DNA of 64,000 bases from Deltaproteobacteria bacterium (GTDB taxonomy: Bacteria; Desulfobacterota_D; UBA1144; Nemesobacterales; UBA2774): positions 124,001 to 188,000 of the forward strand of contig JAVKFU010000017.1 of assembly GCA_040223695.1 (NCBI GenBank), written 5' to 3'. Positions 26,501 through 60,123 of this stretch are shown piece after piece. Made by a program: the position numbers and the translations under genes. Under the pieces are notes generated by a model. It ran no database searches and was not told the origin of the DNA. It saw only the letters and a list, made by a program, of their open reading frames with translations. The number at the start of each line of letters is the position of its first letter. The first letter of the stretch is position 1.

Positions 26501-26665
26501 ATTTAACCTCCTGAATTTTTCTAATCAATTTGTTGAAAAGTATTTAAGGATGGTAACATTCCAATTCACCCTCGTCCAATCATTCACAAACACAGTCATT
26601 GCTTTCGAAATTATACATTTCGTGGATAAAAATATAGTTCACTATTAGTAAAGGCTTGTGAGAAA

Positions 26666-51929: not shown

Positions 51930-53126
51930 ATGACCAGAATCATTCTGTATACAGGCAAGGGCGGCGTAGGAAAAACAACCACGGCTGCGGCTACGGCGCT
52001 CGAAGCAGCTAAACGGGGACACAGGGCGCTTGTCGTTTCCACTGACCCCGCCCACAGCCTGCGCGACGCGTTTGACCAGGAAATAGGGCCCGAGCCCAGG
52101 GAAATCATGAAAAATCTCGACGCCCAGGAAATAGACGTTTTTTATTCAGTCGATAAATACTGGGGCAAGCTCACGGGCTATATTCAGTCCCTTTTCAACT
52201 GGATGAACGTGGATGAGATTCTGGCCGAAGAATTCAGCATATTTCCGGGCATGGAAGAGGTGTCATGCTTTCTCTGGGTCTACAGCCATTATCAGGAAAA
52301 AAAATATGACGTGATTATTGTTGACAGCGCGCCGACCGGTGAGACGCTCAGGCTTCTTTCCCTGCCCGATGTTGCCAGGTGGTGGATTGTCAAGGTATTC
52401 CCGATAGAGAGAAAGGTCTTAAAAGTAGTAAGACCGGCCGTAAAAGTGGTATCCGACATGCCTCTGCCCGAAGAGGATACATACGTCGCCATAGAGGACC
52501 TGTTCGACAAGCTGAATTCAATCCACAAAATATTCTCGAATCCCGAAATCACATCCATCAGACTTGTGCTCAATCTCGAAAAAATGGTGATAAAGGAGAC
52601 ACAGCGGGCTTATACCTACCTTAATCTCTACGGATACAACGTAGATTCCGCCATAGTAAACAGAACTATGCCCGAGAAACTGGATCATCCTTATTTCAAG
52701 GAGTGGAAGAAATTCCAGGAAATATACAGAAAAGAGGTAACGGAATTATTCAGCCCTATCCCCCTGTATGAGGCGCCTCTGTTTTCCAAGGAAATACTGG
52801 GAATGGAGGCTCTTTCGGAATTCGGGAGCACGCTCTTTTCCGAAAGAGATCCGGTCGATATTCTCTATAAGGGAAAGCCGTACGAGATAGTGAAAGAAAG
52901 GGGTGTCTACAGTATTGTGATGCAACTTCCCTTTGTAAGCAAGGAAGAAGTCAAGCTCCATCAGTTTGGGGAAGAACTCATGATCCAGATCGAGAACCAG
53001 AGACGAAACATATTCCTGCCCAACTTTCTGGCCAAACTTAACGTTGATAAGGCAAACCTCGAAAACGGCCTGCTGAAAGTAAGTTTTGAGAAGGGCGGCG
53101 CGGACCGGGCAGGCAAAAAGCGATAA
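51930..53126 (+). CDS. Get3/ArsA-family ATPase with C-terminal alpha-crystallin-like domain
   Basis: 398 residues. P-loop T-G-K-G-G-V-G-K-T-T at 8-17, switch I S-T-D-P-A-H-S, and the D-S-A-P-T-G-E-T-L-R switch II of the ArsA/Get3 family. Residues about 305-385 read as a small heat-shock (alpha-crystallin) beta sandwich (V-Y-S-I-V-M-Q-L-P-F, then L-M-I-Q-I). This domain layout matches bacterial Get3d-type proteins, not arsenite pumps: there is no second ATPase half and no ArsB nearby. It likely binds hydrophobic peptides or membrane proteins. Confidence 0.85.
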   Translation: MTRIILYTGKGGVGKTTTAAATALEAAKRGHRALVVSTDPAHSLRDAFDQEIGPEPREIMKNLDAQEIDVFYSVDKYWGKLTGYIQSLFNWMNVDEILAEEFSIFPGMEEVSCFLWVYSHYQEKKYDVIIVDSAPTGETLRLLSLPDVARWWIVKVFPIERKVLKVVRPAVKVVSDMPLPEEDTYVAIEDLFDKLNSIHKIFSNPEITSIRLVLNLEKMVIKETQRAYTYLNLYGYNVDSAIVNRTMPEKLDHPYFKEWKKFQEIYRKEVTELFSPIPLYEAPLFSKEILGMEALSEFGSTLFSERDPVDILYKGKPYEIVKERGVYSIVMQLPFVSKEEVKLHQFGEELMIQIENQRRNIFLPNFLAKLNVDKANLENGLLKVSFEKGGADRAGKKR

Positions 53127-53212
53127 TTGAACCGGCTGCTCCAGAAACGCGGTGAGTCGCGCTGTGATTAGGATACAAATCTTATGACCTGACTCGAAGC
53201 TTATATTTTTGA

Positions 53213-53266
53213 TTAACGGTAAGTTAACAGAAAATTCAACACCCCTTAACAATGAGAAACTAGAAT
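53213..53266 (+). promoter_or_regulatory. Pho-box-like promoter A
   Basis: TTAAC at 53213, 53224 and 53246, with a degenerate TTCAA at 53235, so four units at an exact 11-base period. The last unit ends at 53250; a 10-base gap leads to TAGAAT at 53261-53266 (-10). No -35 is needed if an activator replaces it. Predicted start is about 53273, four bases before the ATG of the GT2 remnant. Confidence 0.6.
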
Positions 53267-53276
53267 TACCATCGTA

Positions 53277-53718
53277 ATGGCGATAGGACTTGATGATATA
53301 ACGGTAATTCTTCCTGCAAGGAATCAATCGCGTAAAACCACACGGTTTCTTAAATCCCCGCCCGAGAATATAGAACTCATATTGATAGAGGCGAGCGAGG
53401 ATTCAACCCACGATATTGTTAAATCAACCGGACCGCATTATACTACCGTTATACGACGCAGGGGGGCGGTTACGGAAGCCCGGAGCCTTGGAGTTGAAAC
53501 GGCTACGACACCTTGGCCTCTCTTTACTGATGTGGGTGTTGAGTTTTCGGAAGGATATTTCAAAAAGCTTGCAGATCGAAAACCGCGACCTGACTCACGG
53601 ACCGAAGCTCTCGCTCGATCACTTTACGACCTGTTACAAAGGGTTTGCGTACGGTAAATATCTGATTCAATTGCTTGGAGTTCCCGCGGGAGCGCATAAT
53701 CAGCCGAAAGGCTTATGA
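53277..53718 (+). pseudogene. Degraded family-2 glycosyltransferase
   Basis: The first frame (53277 to about 53580) gives the GT2 start: D-D-I-T-V-I-L-P-A-R-N, then A-R-S-L-G-V-E-T-A-T and an L-F-T-D-V-G nucleotide-binding remnant. The matching continuation (Y-K-G-F-A-Y-G-K-Y-L-I-Q-L-L-G-V-P-A-G) lies in another frame and ends at a TGA at 53716-53718. At least one frameshift is visible, and the total length is well below that of an intact GT2, so an internal deletion is likely. It still stands first behind promoter A. Confidence 0.65.
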
Positions 53719-53769
53719 GAAAGCGTGAGGGTATCGAGCCTAATTAGGAGAAGAACCGGAACTTGAAAA

Positions 53770-54408
53770 ATGCAAACTGATAAAAATTTATATCAACATA
53801 CGGCAGAAACTGTTTTAATACCTCTTGACAGGCGGGACAAATCGGCAAGAATAATCTCACACCTGCTAAGCCCGCCTCTTATAGCACTGGCCAGCATAAT
53901 AATAACCGCTCAGGTGACTGAAAATAACTCGGCGCTTTTATGGATATTTATCTTTATCGGGCTGCTTGTACTTCCTCCGACGCTATACGTTCTTTGGCTC
54001 GTTCACAGAGGCATAGTCAGTGATTTCCACCTGAATAACAGGGAGGAGCGGGCTTTCCCTTTACTGGTCATCCTTGCCAATACGGCTCTTGTGTCTCTTG
54101 CTATGTACGTATCGGGCGCTCCCAGGCTGATGCTGATTGCTACAGCAGCGGCTCTTATACAATTGATTTTCGTCCTTATTATTACCCTTCGATGGAAAAT
54201 CAGCGGACACTGCACAGCCGCGGCAAGTCTTTCTGTTCTGGCGGTAGCACTTTACGGCGAAAGTCTTATACCACTGACTTTAATAATACCGCTCACAGCA
54301 TGGTCAAGAATCAGGCTCGGCAGGCACACCTTCACACAGACAGTGGCAGGCGGTTTTCTGGGAGCGGTTACAGTAGTTGTAATTCTTTACACAACCAGTG
54401 CTATTTGA
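53770..54408 (+). CDS. PAP2-family membrane phosphatase
   Basis: 212 residues with six membrane helices. PAP2 motif 2 is S-G-H-C-T (residues about 143-147) and motif 3 is S-R-I-R-L-G-R-H-T-F-T-Q (about 184-195), keeping the catalytic His and Arg; motif 1 is poorly preserved. The family dephosphorylates lipid phosphates such as phosphatidate or undecaprenyl pyrophosphate. Position between the GT2 remnant and a GT4 gene suggests release of diacylglycerol for glycolipid synthesis. The upstream stop (TGA at 53764) fixes the ATG. Confidence 0.83.
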   Translation: MQTDKNLYQHTAETVLIPLDRRDKSARIISHLLSPPLIALASIIITAQVTENNSALLWIFIFIGLLVLPPTLYVLWLVHRGIVSDFHLNNREERAFPLLVILANTALVSLAMYVSGAPRLMLIATAAALIQLIFVLIITLRWKISGHCTAAASLSVLAVALYGESLIPLTLIIPLTAWSRIRLGRHTFTQTVAGGFLGAVTVVVILYTTSAI

Positions 54409-54450
54409 CCAACTTAATCAATCTAAATATGTTCCGGGTAAAGCATAGAG

Positions 54451-55437
54451 ATGAAAATAATGCTCGTAACCGACGCATGGCATCCTCAGGTCAACGGTGT
54501 CACCTACACCTGGAGCTATATCACAAATTTAATCAGAAAAGAGCACGATGTATTCATTCTGAATCCGTATGTCGAGGGCGCCGAGCATTTACCCCTAAAG
54601 CTGCAGGGGAATATCCCGATATTAAAAAATGCTTCGTATATAGTTGAAAAGTATTTCAACAAGCTTAAGCCTGACCGAGTCCATATAGCCACCGAGGGAA
54701 GTCTTGGCCTTGCCATGAGACAGTACTGTAGAAAAAACAAAATGAATTATAACACCTCTTATCACACGAGGCTTGCGGACTACGGATGGATACTTTACGG
54801 CGTGCCCGCGTTTCTCACCTGGCTGTATGTGAGATGGTTTCACAAATGCAGCGGAAAGGTTCTGGTAACGACAAAAAGCATAGCGAAACAAGTGGGTCTC
54901 AATAACTGCATTGTATGGGGCCGGGGTGTGGATACCGATCTATTCAGTCCGGACGGAAAACAAAAAAAACCGGAAGAGAAAACAATAATTACGGTAGGGA
55001 GAGTAAGCAAAGATAAAAATTTGGATGACTTCTGCAAAATTCCCGGCTATAGAAAAATACTGGCGGGTGACGGACCTTATCTGAGCACACTTGAATTGAA
55101 ATATCCCGACGTCCAATTTACGGGATACATACCCCATAATGAACTTAAAAACATTTATAACAGGGCCCATGTATTCGTCTTTCCGAGTAAGTTCGACACG
55201 TTCGGACTCGTTATCCTGGAGGCCATGGCATGCGGCCTGCCCGTTGTGGCTTATGACGTGCCGAGTCCGAGCGATATAGTAGAGGACGGCGTTACCGGAT
55301 ATCTCGGTGAGAGTCTAGAGGAAAACTTAGAAAAAGCCTTTCGTAATCTGGATGCCTTATCCGGAAATGCTCTCCAATATGCGGAGTCTAAAAGCTGGAA
55401 CTCAATCGCCGACCAATTCATAAGCCATCTGGCCTGA
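54451..55437 (+). CDS. GT4-family glycosyltransferase
   Basis: 328 residues, GT-B fold. The N-terminus V-T-D-A-W-H-P-Q-V-N-G-V is characteristic of GT4 enzymes like SqdX, MgtA and Agt, which add sugars to diacylglycerol or glycolipids. The C-terminal nucleotide domain has F-P-S-K-F-D-T-F-G-L-V-I-L-E-A-M-A-C-G-L-P-V-V, holding the E-x7-E type motif. Likely a membrane-associated glycolipid synthase, given the PAP2 neighbour and promoter A. Product (gluco-, galacto- or sulfoquinovosyl) cannot be read. Confidence 0.88.
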   Translation: MKIMLVTDAWHPQVNGVTYTWSYITNLIRKEHDVFILNPYVEGAEHLPLKLQGNIPILKNASYIVEKYFNKLKPDRVHIATEGSLGLAMRQYCRKNKMNYNTSYHTRLADYGWILYGVPAFLTWLYVRWFHKCSGKVLVTTKSIAKQVGLNNCIVWGRGVDTDLFSPDGKQKKPEEKTIITVGRVSKDKNLDDFCKIPGYRKILAGDGPYLSTLELKYPDVQFTGYIPHNELKNIYNRAHVFVFPSKFDTFGLVILEAMACGLPVVAYDVPSPSDIVEDGVTGYLGESLEENLEKAFRNLDALSGNALQYAESKSWNSIADQFISHLA

Positions 55438-55648
55438 GTACCGAAAATAATTCAACATGAATTTTCATCTACGACTCACTGACGCAAAAGTTAAAGCGGA
55501 ACTCCGACTCTTGTGGTGAAAAACCTCCAATATATTATTGAACAAACGAAATTAATAGTTTGTAAGTATTGCGATAACCCTTCTTTAACATTGAGGATAT
55601 CTGCCATTTGATTGCCCGCCCCATCCCCGGGCGCCTGCGAAAACCCGG

Positions 55649-55675
55649 TAAGAGTCCGACCCCCCAGGACTCTTA
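55649..55675 (+). terminator. Hairpin downstream of the GT4 gene
   Basis: A perfect 9-base stem TAAGAGTCC/GGACTCTTA with a 9-base C-rich loop, followed by CACTTTTCTTC. It could be a terminator for the PAP2-GT4 unit, although it is about 210 bases after the GT4 stop. The rest of 55438-55777 shows nothing coding; a 65-codon minus frame there is not convincing. Confidence 0.5.
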
Positions 55676-55777
55676 CACTTTTCTTCAAGATACGTTAATC
55701 AACTGACTGATGAGCCGTGTTATTGAAAGAAAAAAGCATCAGCTGTAATAATTGAAATGATTTACGATTTGAAAATC

Positions 55778-55820
55778 TTAACGCTATCTTAACACTATCT
55801 TAACAAAACCCATATACAAT
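55778..55820 (+). promoter_or_regulatory. Pho-box-like promoter B
   Basis: TTAAC at 55778, 55789 and 55800, an exact 11-base period with TAT spacers (CTTAACGC, CTTAACAC, CTTAACAA), then a 10-base gap and TACAAT at 55815-55820. The cleanest of the three copies. It lies 40 bases before the ATG at 55861. Confidence 0.72.
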
Positions 55821-55860
55821 TACCTCCGGAATTCAGAATCCATAACATACGAGGTGACCA

Positions 55861-56433
55861 ATGAGTACGGAACCACTTGATAGAAATTCAATAGAGAGCG
55901 AACTCGAGACGCTCGTATCAAAATCCAAGGACTATATGAACACCAGAAACGAGGGTGAGCTGGTTTCACTTAGAAATGACATGATACACCTCAAGCTAAA
56001 GCTCGAAAGCGCAATGGAAAATAAAAATAATCATAATGCAAATTACATCACGGCACTCAAGCTGATGCTCTCGATTATCCATAAATTTACCTATTCGGTC
56101 AGCTTGATGGACAAACTTAAATCAAAAAAACCGATGTGTATGGAATTTGATACCCACCAGATGCTGGACACACTACTCCCTCACATCAAAACGCTCGCAG
56201 AATACGATAACTGGATAGATAAACTCGATACGAAAAAGCTTGAGGAAGACTATCTGTTTATAGAATCTCTCGAAGACCAGCACAAGAGAGTGCTGCTTAC
56301 CTATCTCATCCAGGATTGGCGCAATATTGACGAAGTTTACACATTATTGAAAATCGGGGAAACGTATAAGAATATATCCGAAAAACTGGTCAGCCTTTCA
56401 CTCGTATCAAGTTATATGAAAAATGGTCAATGA
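55861..56433 (+). CDS. Unknown helical protein behind Pho-like promoter B
   Basis: 190 residues, soluble, almost entirely helical with heptad-like Leu/Ile spacing. It starts E-P-L-D-R-N-S-I-E-S-E-L-E, and contains H-K-F-T-Y-S-V and a charged W-R-N-I-D-E-V-Y-T region. It has a GAGGTG ribosome site. There is no signal peptide or known domain; the helix-bundle look is vaguely PhoU-like, but the PhoU metal motifs are not seen. Placement directly after the Pho-type promoter makes it a phosphate-response candidate. Confidence 0.7.
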   Translation: MSTEPLDRNSIESELETLVSKSKDYMNTRNEGELVSLRNDMIHLKLKLESAMENKNNHNANYITALKLMLSIIHKFTYSVSLMDKLKSKKPMCMEFDTHQMLDTLLPHIKTLAEYDNWIDKLDTKKLEEDYLFIESLEDQHKRVLLTYLIQDWRNIDEVYTLLKIGETYKNISEKLVSLSLVSSYMKNGQ

Positions 56434-56543
56434 TCGGATGGATGGAGAGTGATGTAGTCAAGCTTCATTCATAATCCCCGAACCTGTCGGCCGAGCTTGC
56501 CCGGTTCTCTTTAGTCACATTCCACTTCAACCACATCCGCCCT

Positions 56544-57572
56544 TCAAGAAATTTCTCCCTCAAGAAATTCATTAACATGGTCTGCGCTTTCCATACTGTC
56601 AAGAATCCTGCTCACTATCGCGGGAAGATTGTTTTTATAATTCGCATCGTAGTAAAAAGACGAATCTATCCACTCGGACAGTATGCGCTCGGATTCTATT
56701 CTCAAATCTCTCACGACCGGTATTCCCAGTCTTTCGAGAGCCTCCGCATTACACTGCTGTTCGTACTGTCTCTTCATCGGGATAACCATGAGCTTTTTAC
56801 CTAAAAATAACGCTTCCGCCGGGGTTTCGAATCCGGCATTGCACAAAATGCCCTCGCAGCTCGAGAGACTCCTGACAAATTCTTCATTATTAACGGGGAA
56901 AACCGTTATATTTTTCTCGCGGAAAGGCTCTCCCTTGTGATGTTTTGAAAAAACTTCCCAGCTTACATCTACATTCCTTAGTATCCCGGATAAAAACCTG
57001 CCGTCGTAGGAAGGCAAGTACGCTGTATAGTGCCCGTTGTTCGCCGGTTCGGAATTCCTGATCTCCTCCCTTATTATGGGGGTAAAAATGAAATCGTCAT
57101 ACTCCTTAAAATGCAATCCTATGAGGGAAGATGAAGGCGCGTACCATTTGAGAATGAGCTCGGCGAAAAGATTCTTGCCCGGCGGCCTGGGAATCTTGGG
57201 TGAAAGAAATGAGGCCTGGTGCGAAATAGATATGCACGGCACCCTCCTGAACCTGGCAGCCCAGGCTGTTACAGGCTCAAAGTCGCTTAAAACCAGATCG
57301 TATTTCTCTACAGGAATTTTGTAAATGTCCGACAGCAATTTACGGGGGCTGAAATTCTTCAGTGAATTCCAGTAATCTATGCCCCCGCGTTTACCGAAGG
57401 TAAAACCCAGCCCGGGTAGTCTGTATTTTGTATCAAATCCTATATCTATCTCATGATGGTAGCCGCTCAACAGCACGTCAACATCGACGTGTCTTAAAAG
57501 ATACTTCAAGATCTCCCTTGAACGGGAGATATGCCCGTTTCCGGTACCCTGAATCCCGAATAAAACTTTCAT
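56544..57572 (-). CDS. GT-B glycosyltransferase, GT28/MurG-like
   Basis: 342 residues. The glycine-rich start G-I-Q-G-T-G-N-G-H-I-S-R-S is the N-terminal motif of the MurG/MGDG-synthase-like GT-B group; the C-terminal C-N-A-G-F-E-T-P-A-E-A motif binds the sugar nucleotide. It is not MurG itself (position and remainder differ) and resembles stand-alone archaeal/bacterial GT28-like proteins of unknown acceptor. It is transcribed opposite to its neighbours and ends facing the unknown helical gene. A lipid acceptor is inferred from location. Confidence 0.8.
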   Translation of the reverse strand: MKVLFGIQGTGNGHISRSREILKYLLRHVDVDVLLSGYHHEIDIGFDTKYRLPGLGFTFGKRGGIDYWNSLKNFSPRKLLSDIYKIPVEKYDLVLSDFEPVTAWAARFRRVPCISISHQASFLSPKIPRPPGKNLFAELILKWYAPSSSLIGLHFKEYDDFIFTPIIREEIRNSEPANNGHYTAYLPSYDGRFLSGILRNVDVSWEVFSKHHKGEPFREKNITVFPVNNEEFVRSLSSCEGILCNAGFETPAEALFLGKKLMVIPMKRQYEQQCNAEALERLGIPVVRDLRIESERILSEWIDSSFYYDANYKNNLPAIVSRILDSMESADHVNEFLEGEIS

Positions 57573-58065
57573 TTTGTATTCTTTAGATATTTCCCTTTAT
57601 ATCATATATAGTATGGAAAGATCTATCTGTCCAGCAAACAAAATAACCGCCCCTTTCCGCTTAACAATCAAAACAGCTCCCCGGCGGGGCAGCAAACAAT
57701 GCGCCTGACAACCTTGGCTTAATCATAAACCAAAGCGTCTCCGCAAACCAGTAATTCAAAATCCATAAGCCAAAAAACTCTCTTGAGGGAGACGGTCAAA
57801 TATAATTTCTGCAAAGACTATCCGCCATAATATTTTCAAAAATTTGACCATATCTTCTGTGTTGTCCTGATTACTGAGGAGAAATGGCTCATGGAAAATT
57901 ATGCTAAATAGATTAAAGTTCGAATATTATTACATAGACCCATATTCCAAAAAAAGAGAGCCGGGCAGTTTAAAGACAAGCGCCGCAGTTTCGTTTTAAC
58001 TCTAATCTATTTTGTTTTGATAGCGTATTAACCGTGAATAGAATACATATATAACTATTTAAGTT
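57573..58065. other. Gene-free interval
   Basis: AT-rich. I see no gene. It must contain the promoter of the GT28-like gene near its left end; single TTAA motifs occur, but no 11-base repeat series. Confidence 0.5.
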
Positions 58066-58282
58066 TCATTCCGCATCCGATTCGGCCAGCTCGCAGGGAA
58101 CCGGCAAACGACTGTGTTTGCAACCGCAAACCCGGGGCAGCCGTGTCCCCTCCGTCGTGAAATCAAAATCGCGCTCGCCATAGGACGTAAAGCCTTTCGG
58201 TTCCAGGCCGCTACGGCCCGTGCCGTTTCTCAACGAAGTTGTCTCTCCACAGAGCTTTAATTTTCGCGCATCGAAATACATT
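58066..58282 (-). ncRNA. Candidate Pho-controlled small RNA (or leaderless 71-codon gene)
   Basis: Transcribed from promoter C, start about 58282. The segment is much GC-richer than its AT-rich surroundings and folds into serial hairpins (minus-strand RNA): 58254-58243 (CTCT/AGAG), 58241-58231 (CAAC/GTTG), 58226-58213 (ACGGC/GCCGT) and 58131-58116 (GTTTGC-GGTT-GCAAAC, six perfect pairs). An ATG at 58281 opens 71 codons with no ribosome site; the peptide has four Cys and no recognisable family. RNA is favoured, but a leaderless small protein cannot be excluded. No T-tailed terminator is visible. Confidence 0.42.
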
Positions 58283-58288
58283 ATGACT

Positions 58289-58331
58289 ATTGTATTTCTT
58301 CAGTATTAAGGGAATATTAAGGAAGAATTAA
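58289..58331 (-). promoter_or_regulatory. Pho-box-like promoter C (minus strand)
   Basis: On the minus strand TTAAT occurs at 58331, 58320 and 58309, exact 11-base period, followed by 10 bases and TACAAT (58294-58289). The orientation points left, into 58282-58066, not toward olsB. Confidence 0.62.
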
Positions 58332-58440
58332 CAGAAGCAGAAAAGCAGGATATTCCCGGATTGTCCGTTACACCTGGACTTCACGCTCATTTCTTTGATA
58401 TAATGGAGACATTTTATAAACATAAAATTCATATTCGCTT

Positions 58441-58475
58441 AATACGTATTAAACACTCAAGAGGTATTAAACACT
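58441..58475 (+). repeat. Palindrome and direct repeat upstream of olsB
   Basis: AATACGTATT (58441-58450) is a perfect palindrome, and GTATTAAACACT occurs twice (58446-58457 and 58464-58475), 18 bases apart. The region lies about 25-55 bases before the olsB ATG and may bind a regulator. The spacing is not the 11-base Pho-type period. Confidence 0.5.
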
Positions 58476-58497
58476 TAGCCCTAAATCGGAGAGAAGC

Positions 58498-59358
58498 ATG
58501 ATAACAAAGAAAGTAATGTCAATTAAAGATACGGTTTCCACTTCAAATATGCTGAGAAAGGCTTTCCGTTGGAAGCTAAGACAGTTTCGACCAAAAATTC
58601 CCATTTTAATCGAAAGCAGCAGGTTCCTTATCAAGACCGTCGAAAACGCATTTGAACTGGATAAGGCGTTAAACCTCAGATACGAAGTATTTTATAAAGA
58701 AACCCTTAACAAGGATAATTTCACAAGGACCGACTTGGATAAATTCGACCTGCTCTGCGACCACTTGCTAATTCTGGATAAAAAACAGAACTGTGTAGTA
58801 GGCACGTATAGATTAATCTCGTCCACCTTTTCGGATAAATTCTATTCTGAAACCGAATTTTCCATGGATCAGATCAAGGAGGCGAAGGGAATAAAACTCG
58901 AGCTCGGAAGGGCATGCGTCCACAGAAATTACAGGAACGGCACGGGGATTGCGCTTCTGTGGAAGGGATTGTCGGAGTATTACAGGAAAATCGGAGCGAA
59001 ATACCTGTTCGGATGCTCGAGTATCGGTACTACCAATATCATCGAAATAAGTCTTATTTATAAATACATAAAAGAGTTATATTTGTCTCCCGAGAACTTC
59101 AGGGTGTTTCCCAACGAGAAGCATAAAATCAAAGAGCTCGAAACCTATATGCCCGCGTTCGACAAATTCGATATCAAGACCGAGTCTATAGAGAATTTCA
59201 TACCTCCGCTGCTAAAGAGCTACCTGAAAGCGGGATCGGTCATTTGCGGGGAGCCGGCGCTCGACAAAAAATTTAAATGCGCGGACTTCTTCACCGTCCT
59301 CGATCTTGAGCTTCTTTCCAAATCATTCGAAAAAAGATACAAGGTCGCAAATGGTTAG
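58498..59358 (+). CDS. olsB: Ornithine-lipid N-acyltransferase OlsB (GNAT)
   Basis: 286 residues. The OlsB pattern is present: F-E-L-D-K-A-L-N-L-R-Y-E-V-F-Y-K-E near residue 50-65, D-H-L-L-I-L-D near 98, L-G-R-A-C-V-H-R-N-Y-R-N-G-T-G acyl-CoA/ACP-binding loop near 140-155, then W-K-G-L-S-E-Y. It would attach a 3-hydroxyacyl chain to the alpha-amino group of ornithine, the first step to phosphorus-free ornithine lipid. A good GGAGA precedes the ATG. olsA follows with an overlap at the stop. Confidence 0.85.
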   Translation: MITKKVMSIKDTVSTSNMLRKAFRWKLRQFRPKIPILIESSRFLIKTVENAFELDKALNLRYEVFYKETLNKDNFTRTDLDKFDLLCDHLLILDKKQNCVVGTYRLISSTFSDKFYSETEFSMDQIKEAKGIKLELGRACVHRNYRNGTGIALLWKGLSEYYRKIGAKYLFGCSSIGTTNIIEISLIYKYIKELYLSPENFRVFPNEKHKIKELETYMPAFDKFDIKTESIENFIPPLLKSYLKAGSVICGEPALDKKFKCADFFTVLDLELLSKSFEKRYKVANG

Positions 59359-60123
59359 GAAATTCTGGAAACTAATCTTTTTTTTTGCATTGTAGTTTCT
59401 TTTATAGCGGTAACGACGATCCTTAACGCACTTACAAGAGACCGGAAGGAGAGGCTTCACAGATCCACGAAAATCACCTCTTTTTTCAACGGGGTTCTGA
59501 TCAAATCATTGGGCATTAACGTGCGGCTCACAAACCGCGGGAGCGCGCCCAACGAGAAGAAAAACTACCTTATCCTCTGTAACCACCTTTCCTACCTCGA
59601 CATATTCATAATCTCCTCCTTTTTCCCCGCTTCTTTTATAGCCAGCGTCGATGAGGTAAGGAATACTTTCCTGCTGGGAAAAGTCACAGAGCTGAGCGGC
59701 GGATTCTTCGTCGAAAGGAGAAAGCGGTCGGGCCTTCGAGCCGAAATCGAATCCATATCCGAGTTGTTAAAGATGGGTATTAATGTGGCACTGTTCCCCG
59801 AGGGTACGACCTCCAACGGGGAGCGGGTTCTCCCCTTCAAAACGCCGCTCATAAGCATCGCTCAAAAAGCGGGAACGGACATTCTACCCCTCTGTATAAA
59901 GTACCGGAGAATAAACGGAGAGGAGATTAACGCCCGCAATAGAGACCTCGTTTACTACTACGGGGATATGAAGTTCTTTGACCATTTCTTCGACTTTCTA
60001 TCTGTAGGCTCGGTGGATGTCGAACTCACGATGCTCGAAAGCATCGACCCCCTGTCAGGCGCTTCCAGAAAGGAGCTTGCGGCATCTGCATTTAACTCTA
60101 TAAACTCAGCGTACATGAAATAA
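59351..60123 (+). CDS. olsA: Lyso-ornithine lipid O-acyltransferase OlsA, interrupted by a T9 run
   Basis: PlsC-type acyltransferase with N-H-L-S-Y-L-D (the H-x4-D motif) and F-P-E-G-T-T-S-N-G. The natural ATG at 59351 overlaps the olsB stop and reads M-V-R-K-F-W-K-L-I-F-F-F, then hits a stop just after nine T residues (59378-59386). The rest of the membrane helix (C-I-V-V-S-F-I-A-V-T-T) and the whole enzyme continue in another frame to 60123; reading through needs one extra T (or loss of two). A shorter product could begin at TTG 59509 but would lack the helix. It completes ornithine lipid by O-acylation at the membrane. Confidence 0.75.

Follow-up and report, generated by a model that had tools for sequence, protein, structure and literature searches.

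Three promoters lying close together and sharing one arrangement of tandem repeats raise the question of which regulator reads them and what the genes behind them have in common. They lie in the window analysed here, by which we mean the whole 64-kb stretch C17:124001-188000 from the assembly of an uncultured member of Candidatus Dadabacteria (3.03 Mb, 23 contigs), and an earlier note on this DNA had proposed that they define a local PhoB/SphR-like regulon. The same PhoB-type pattern also precedes phosphate-uptake genes in this genome and its relatives, which makes the stretch very probably an ordinary, previously uncharted phosphate-starvation gene cluster, concerned mostly with phosphorus-free membrane lipids. 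With high confidence we posit that A, B and C all belong to a Pho regulon as PhoB-dependent promoters of the class-II type, and that the cluster probably serves to make phosphorus-free lipids and a PhoU-like protein.

Promoter architecture and genome-wide occurrence

Promoter A (53213-53266, plus strand) consists of four units in 11-bp steps, TTAAC at 53213, 53224 and 53246 with TTCAA at 53235, followed by 10 bases and the -10 hexamer TAGAAT (53261-53266). Promoter B (55778-55820, plus strand) has three TTAAC units at the same period (55778, 55789 and 55800), 10 bases and TACAAT (55815-55820). Promoter C (58289-58331) lies on the minus strand and reads toward 57572, with TTAAT at 58331-58327, 58320-58316 and 58309-58305 and, after 10 bases, TACAAT at 58294-58289. 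All three thus contain at least two direct-repeat units with an 11-bp period ending approximately 10 bp before the -10 element, as a pho box should, and the positions, units, period, gap and hexamers given in the earlier note are correct to the base. The -10 hexamers are weak at several sites, and the start sites are predicted. The unit of A that had been called degenerate is indeed present as TTCAA, but TTCA[AC] recurs at the matching position in the A, B and porin sites of relatives and is therefore best regarded as an accepted variant of the middle unit. An extra fourth unit upstream is common at the A, pst and porin promoters of relatives.

A search for three TTAAY units at an 11-bp period followed by 10 bases and TANAAT, allowing up to three mismatches, returned four matches in the window against 0.04 expected and at most one match in any of 100 dinucleotide-preserving shuffles, bearing out the earlier claim that the shared geometry is very unlikely to arise by chance. 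These four were B and C (both exact), A (two mismatches) and a site at 26610 (three mismatches). Across the whole genome, a looser pattern with no more than one mismatch recovered B and C and only two further places, one of which matches in two registers: C14:10608, immediately 5' of pstS in the operon pstS-pstC-pstA-pstB-LMW phosphatase-phoU, and C19:144002, immediately 5' of a Porin_O_P (phosphate-selective porin) gene divergent from phoB-phoR.

The same promoters were ranked highest by a sequence-only model of 71 columns, trained on 36 sites of relatives and none from this genome. Its top five hits in 3.03 Mb were B (E 1.2e-7), pstS (2.5e-7), A (1.0e-5), porin/phoB (2.5e-5) and C (6.7e-5), the ranks of A, B and C partly reflecting conservation because the training sites include their orthologues; the sixth-best hit followed at E 8.5e-4. 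The training-free pattern agrees with the model for B, C, pstS and porin, with A at two mismatches. A genome-wide scan, as the earlier note had suggested, therefore finds the best sites at A, B and C and at the pstS and porin/phoB promoters of the same genome rather than at random positions. This supports the Pho-box reading, while the description of the regulon as local proved too narrow, since it extends genome-wide.

The PhoB regulator and conservation of the box

The genome encodes a phoB-phoR pair (C19:144129-146595). The best NCBIfam hit of PhoB is TIGR02154 (PhoB) at 241 bits, under the equivalog cut-off of 296 bits, a score attained in none of the 41 genomes, and its DNA-binding domain, which is one of only two of the OmpR type in the genome and the one beside the box, aligns with that of E. 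coli PhoB. All six members of the order that were compared, other families included, have the same recognition helix, DRTIDVHIKNLREKLG, which differs from DRTVDVHIRRLRKALE of E. coli in having K-N where E. coli has R-R. This is consistent with the differing unit sequence, to which we infer a causal link. Compared with E. coli PhoB, that of this lineage (L025:7130-7819 and relatives) also contains a two-residue insert immediately ahead of the WG motif (LLKKKRLWGDD); the region before this motif is near the sigma-contacting part of E. coli PhoB.

The layout corresponds to that of PhoB promoters elsewhere, in which 10 bp separate the last repeat from the -10 element (PMC1906773) and the repeat unit is 11 nucleotides (PMC4415409). 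E. coli pho boxes share the 11-bp direct repeats ending 10 bp before the -10 element and a regulon including pstSCAB-phoU and phoBR (PMC1906773, PMC4415409), but their units are of the CTGTCAT type, whereas those described here are TTAAC/TTAAT and usually number three or four. The SphR box of cyanobacteria, CTTAACCT in at least three tandem copies, has the TTAAC core, the 8+3 = 11-bp period and three or more repeats in common with the present sites (PMC1906773); here, however, the host belongs to the Dadabacteria, the regulator is encoded beside a phosphate-selective porin and several target genes differ. The PhoB box of D. vulgaris, (c/t)GT(n)AC with a 6-bp repeat and a 4-bp spacer (PMC3333781), shares tandem direct repeats before pst genes with the Dadabacteria box but differs in unit sequence and period. 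In Pseudomonas aeruginosa, Pho boxes control glycolipid genes (PlcP-Agt) and ornithine lipid is made at low phosphate (PMC8528852). This lipid precedent, combined with the 10-bp placement, the 11-nt repeat and the SphR-like core, indicates a kind of regulon that is already known; what is new to us is the lineage, together with the set of genes and the PhoU-like protein. Among the top-ranked papers of the open-access literature, which was partially covered, none described a Pho regulon in Dadabacteria.

The named relatives of the gene behind B are mostly Candidatus Dadabacteria MAGs, some being filed as Deltaproteobacteria or Thermodesulfobacteriota. A cyanobacterial origin, suggested by the SphR-like core, was ruled out on the basis of these relatives. 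Members of genus g3 keep the order ArsA - GT2 - PAP2 - GT4 - orphan - glycosyltransferase (minus) - olsB - olsA with boxes A, B and C at matching places, and the arrangement is partly kept in g4 and g2. Box A is kept in place in five relatives of the family (L080, L081, L082, L083 and L088) and in G034 of another family, in which boxes precede both the orphan gene and the GT2-PAP2-GT4 operon. Box B is likewise kept in place in relatives, and C in L080-L083 and partly in L088, C being the most strongly conserved site, in which even the spacer ATTCCC separating the last two units is kept. Throughout the phylum, phoB and pstS have boxes beside them. The distant, class-level family f8, whose genomes measure ~1 Mb, has four exact boxes, each lying between phoB and the gene that takes the porin's place; this gene is a recognisable porin homologue in three of four cases, the contig of the fourth ending early.

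The units are short and AT-rich and weaker matches are scattered over the genome, as might be expected if the sites were AT-rich repeats fitting a promoter pattern by chance. Against this, the pattern occurs 146 times at no more than one mismatch in the 41 genomes (75 forward, 71 reverse) compared with 10 times for a reversed-pattern control, a count that includes orthologous sites and not independent events only, the control being equally affected by relatedness. Over 58 genomes of the phylum there are 34 exact matches versus 1 for the control. In alignments of the relatives' intergenic DNA the units and the -10 element stand out, kept in place, against diverged surroundings. Together with the shuffles, the 0.04 matches expected in the window and the top-five ranking beside pst and phoB, these contrasts rule out chance repeats, an explanation to which we give practically no credence. 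It is also very improbable that the boxes are read by the second OmpR-family regulator of the genome (C15:613052), their adjacency to phoB being coincidental. Direct repeats of about this period are common targets of OmpR-family regulators and this one has its own kinase, but no ranked box lies near it, whereas phoB and pstS have theirs throughout the phylum.

We thus hypothesise that PhoB is the regulator. At low phosphate PhoR would phosphorylate PhoB, dimers of which would bind the 11-bp TTAAC units head to tail, take the place of the -35 element and keep RNA polymerase at the -10 element sited 10 bases downstream, so that the promoters would be induced. Promoter A would then drive the GT2-PAP2-GT4 operon (effectively PAP2-GT4 here), B the PhoU-like orphan and C the MJ1255-family glycosyltransferase. 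With the adjacent olsBA, the cluster would probably swap phospholipids for glycolipids and ornithine lipids; the PhoU-like protein may have a part in adjusting phosphate signalling or metabolism. The box provides a working model for a phylum without characterised regulation, whose genomes come from soil, sediment and ocean; with it, sequence alone suffices to list phosphate-starvation genes, and a testable role can be assigned to orphans located behind a box. Phosphate control of phosphorus-free lipid synthesis is also suggested for yet another deep bacterial lineage.

Genes behind promoters A, B and C

The first gene behind A encodes a GT2 glycosyltransferase (53277-53657, plus strand; Pfam PF00535), the ATG of which lies 10 bases past the -10 hexamer, so that the predicted transcript would be nearly leaderless. 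Intact in relatives at 244 aa, this gene is a frameshifted and shortened remnant here: tblastn with the G002 protein aligned residues 1-99 in one frame and ~107-140 in another, with the rest missing, amounting to a loss of ~100 C-terminal residues, while PAP2 and GT4 remain. The PAP2-superfamily phosphatase (53770-54408, plus strand; 212 aa) was assigned from synteny and PF01569 (E 2.3e-5, just under the curated cut-off). The GT4 glycosyltransferase (54451-55437, plus strand; 328 aa; PF00534, E 4e-28) weakly resembles glycolipid synthases (IagA/BgsA, monoglucosyldiacylglycerol synthase), its NCBIfam matches falling under the cut-offs. GT2 has decayed (window 53277-53700) yet box A is retained, presumably for PAP2-GT4.

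Promoter B precedes an orphan gene (55861-56433, plus strand) encoding a protein of 190 aa for which no Pfam or NCBIfam family was found. Its AlphaFold model is all-helical (mean pLDDT 82), and nine of the ten best-scored Foldseek hits in the PDB are entries named PhoU or PhoU-like; the best structure match has E 3.4e-4, and the predicted model reaches a TM-score of 0.69 to A. aeolicus PhoU (1t72). Comparison with PDB sequences gave a weak hit to PhoU (E 0.026), as did profile comparison with the genome's own PhoU (hhalign probability 35), and none of 12 orthologues of the orphan matched the Pfam PhoU profile at E up to 1. The orphan is accordingly predicted to be PhoU-like in fold and not a member of the PhoU family. 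It resembles PhoU proteins in this predicted fold and in the position of its gene behind a Pho box, but it lacks a Pfam PhoU match, and its gene stands apart from pst in a genome that also has a canonical phoU. According to a 2026 paper, bacteria possess PhoU-like accessory regulators of several distinct families (PMC13170248).

In five relatives the interval between GT4 and B holds one more box, B', with its -10 element, and then a conserved element of ~85 nt. In this genome B' is a remnant (55552-55589, plus strand), recognised by alignment with L080-L084, with units in the 11-bp register at 55552 and 55585, degenerate middle units and a deletion of ~13 bases including the -10 element. The ~85-nt element (55598-55684, plus strand) starts with CATCTGCTATTTGATTG, contains invariant ATCTG and ATTTGATTG segments and a small hairpin, and ends in an intrinsic-terminator hairpin in which four of ten pairs are changed on both sides between this genome and G005, all pairs being kept. 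It is confined to g1, g3 and G005, a model of the element finding no convincing copy outside genera g1 and g3 and one g2 genome; neither a known RNA family in 53000-58600 nor an Rfam match to the element was found. In the relatives it is a candidate PhoB-controlled small RNA; an equally good reading is that it forms, together with a conserved leader, the region where the GT4 operon terminates. We suggest only tentatively, and with more doubt than belief, that Dadabacteria PhoB controls this short terminator-ended RNA and a second, divergent PhoU-like protein with its own Pho box outside the pst operon, as a dedicated layer coupling phosphate starvation to membrane lipid replacement.

The first gene downstream of C encodes an MJ1255/VC2487-family glycosyltransferase (56544-57572, minus strand; 342 aa; PF13528, E 6.8e-37; TIGR00661, E 8.6e-48, under cut-off). 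On the other side of C, an OlsB-like ornithine N-acyltransferase (58498-59358, plus strand; 286 aa; NF052554, E 7e-40) and an OlsA-like lyso-ornithine-lipid O-acyltransferase (59509-60123, plus strand; 204 aa; NF052553, E 7e-36) are encoded together, these best NCBIfam hits both being under the equivalog cut-offs. The locus resembles lipid renovation in Pseudomonas aeruginosa in having a glycosyltransferase gene behind a Pho box and ornithine-lipid genes in the same genome; in place of PlcP-Agt there are GT4, GT2 and MJ1255-family enzymes with a PAP2 phosphatase, clustered with olsBA.

By its orientation, site C faces the glycosyltransferase gene that begins at 57572, not olsB. We consider it rather unlikely that C, as a genuine PhoB box, serves olsBA, whether alone or along with the minus-strand glycosyltransferase. 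It does lie between divergent genes, 167 bases upstream of olsB, and ornithine lipids are phosphate-regulated elsewhere (PMC8528852), but in every relative that has the complete site its -10 element and conserved register are directed to the minus strand, and olsB carries a conserved sigma-70-like element of its own. No box is oriented toward olsB. The g2 genomes without olsBA beside the glycosyltransferase have no C box either, which fits either reading. The glycosyltransferase gene may itself have two promoters, given a conserved sigma-70-like element (TTGGAA-17-TATAAT) between C and this gene in relatives. The distance from C to the gene is 716 bases here and ~280 in G002; ~400 extra bases in this interval (window 57640-58070) are absent from relatives, and a mobile repeat was ruled out as their origin, the 431-base stretch being single-copy in the genome.

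Further boxes in the genome and its relatives

Weaker model hits at C17:118268 (a VOC protein), C15:280575 and C18:520918 show no evident connection with phosphate and are not assigned to the regulon. A weak box (E 0.35) stands before a polyphosphate kinase 2 (PPK2) gene at C7:66878 (L153), and a box at C7:101654 (L149) precedes the gene for an exported protein of ~234 aa and unknown function, with exact boxes at the orthologous place in three relatives (L173, L174 and L175); this gene is likely a further member of the regulon. In relatives, an exact box precedes a gene for a ~233-aa protein (L106:4576-5277, L107:5358-6059 and L110:4342-5040), the two copies scanned (L106 and L107) having no Pfam match. 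A calcineurin-like phosphoesterase gene (G000:C19:141860-142339; L025:4861-5340) also lies behind a Pho box in relatives; in this genome it has decayed, its middle part being gone, and its box is down to two mismatches.
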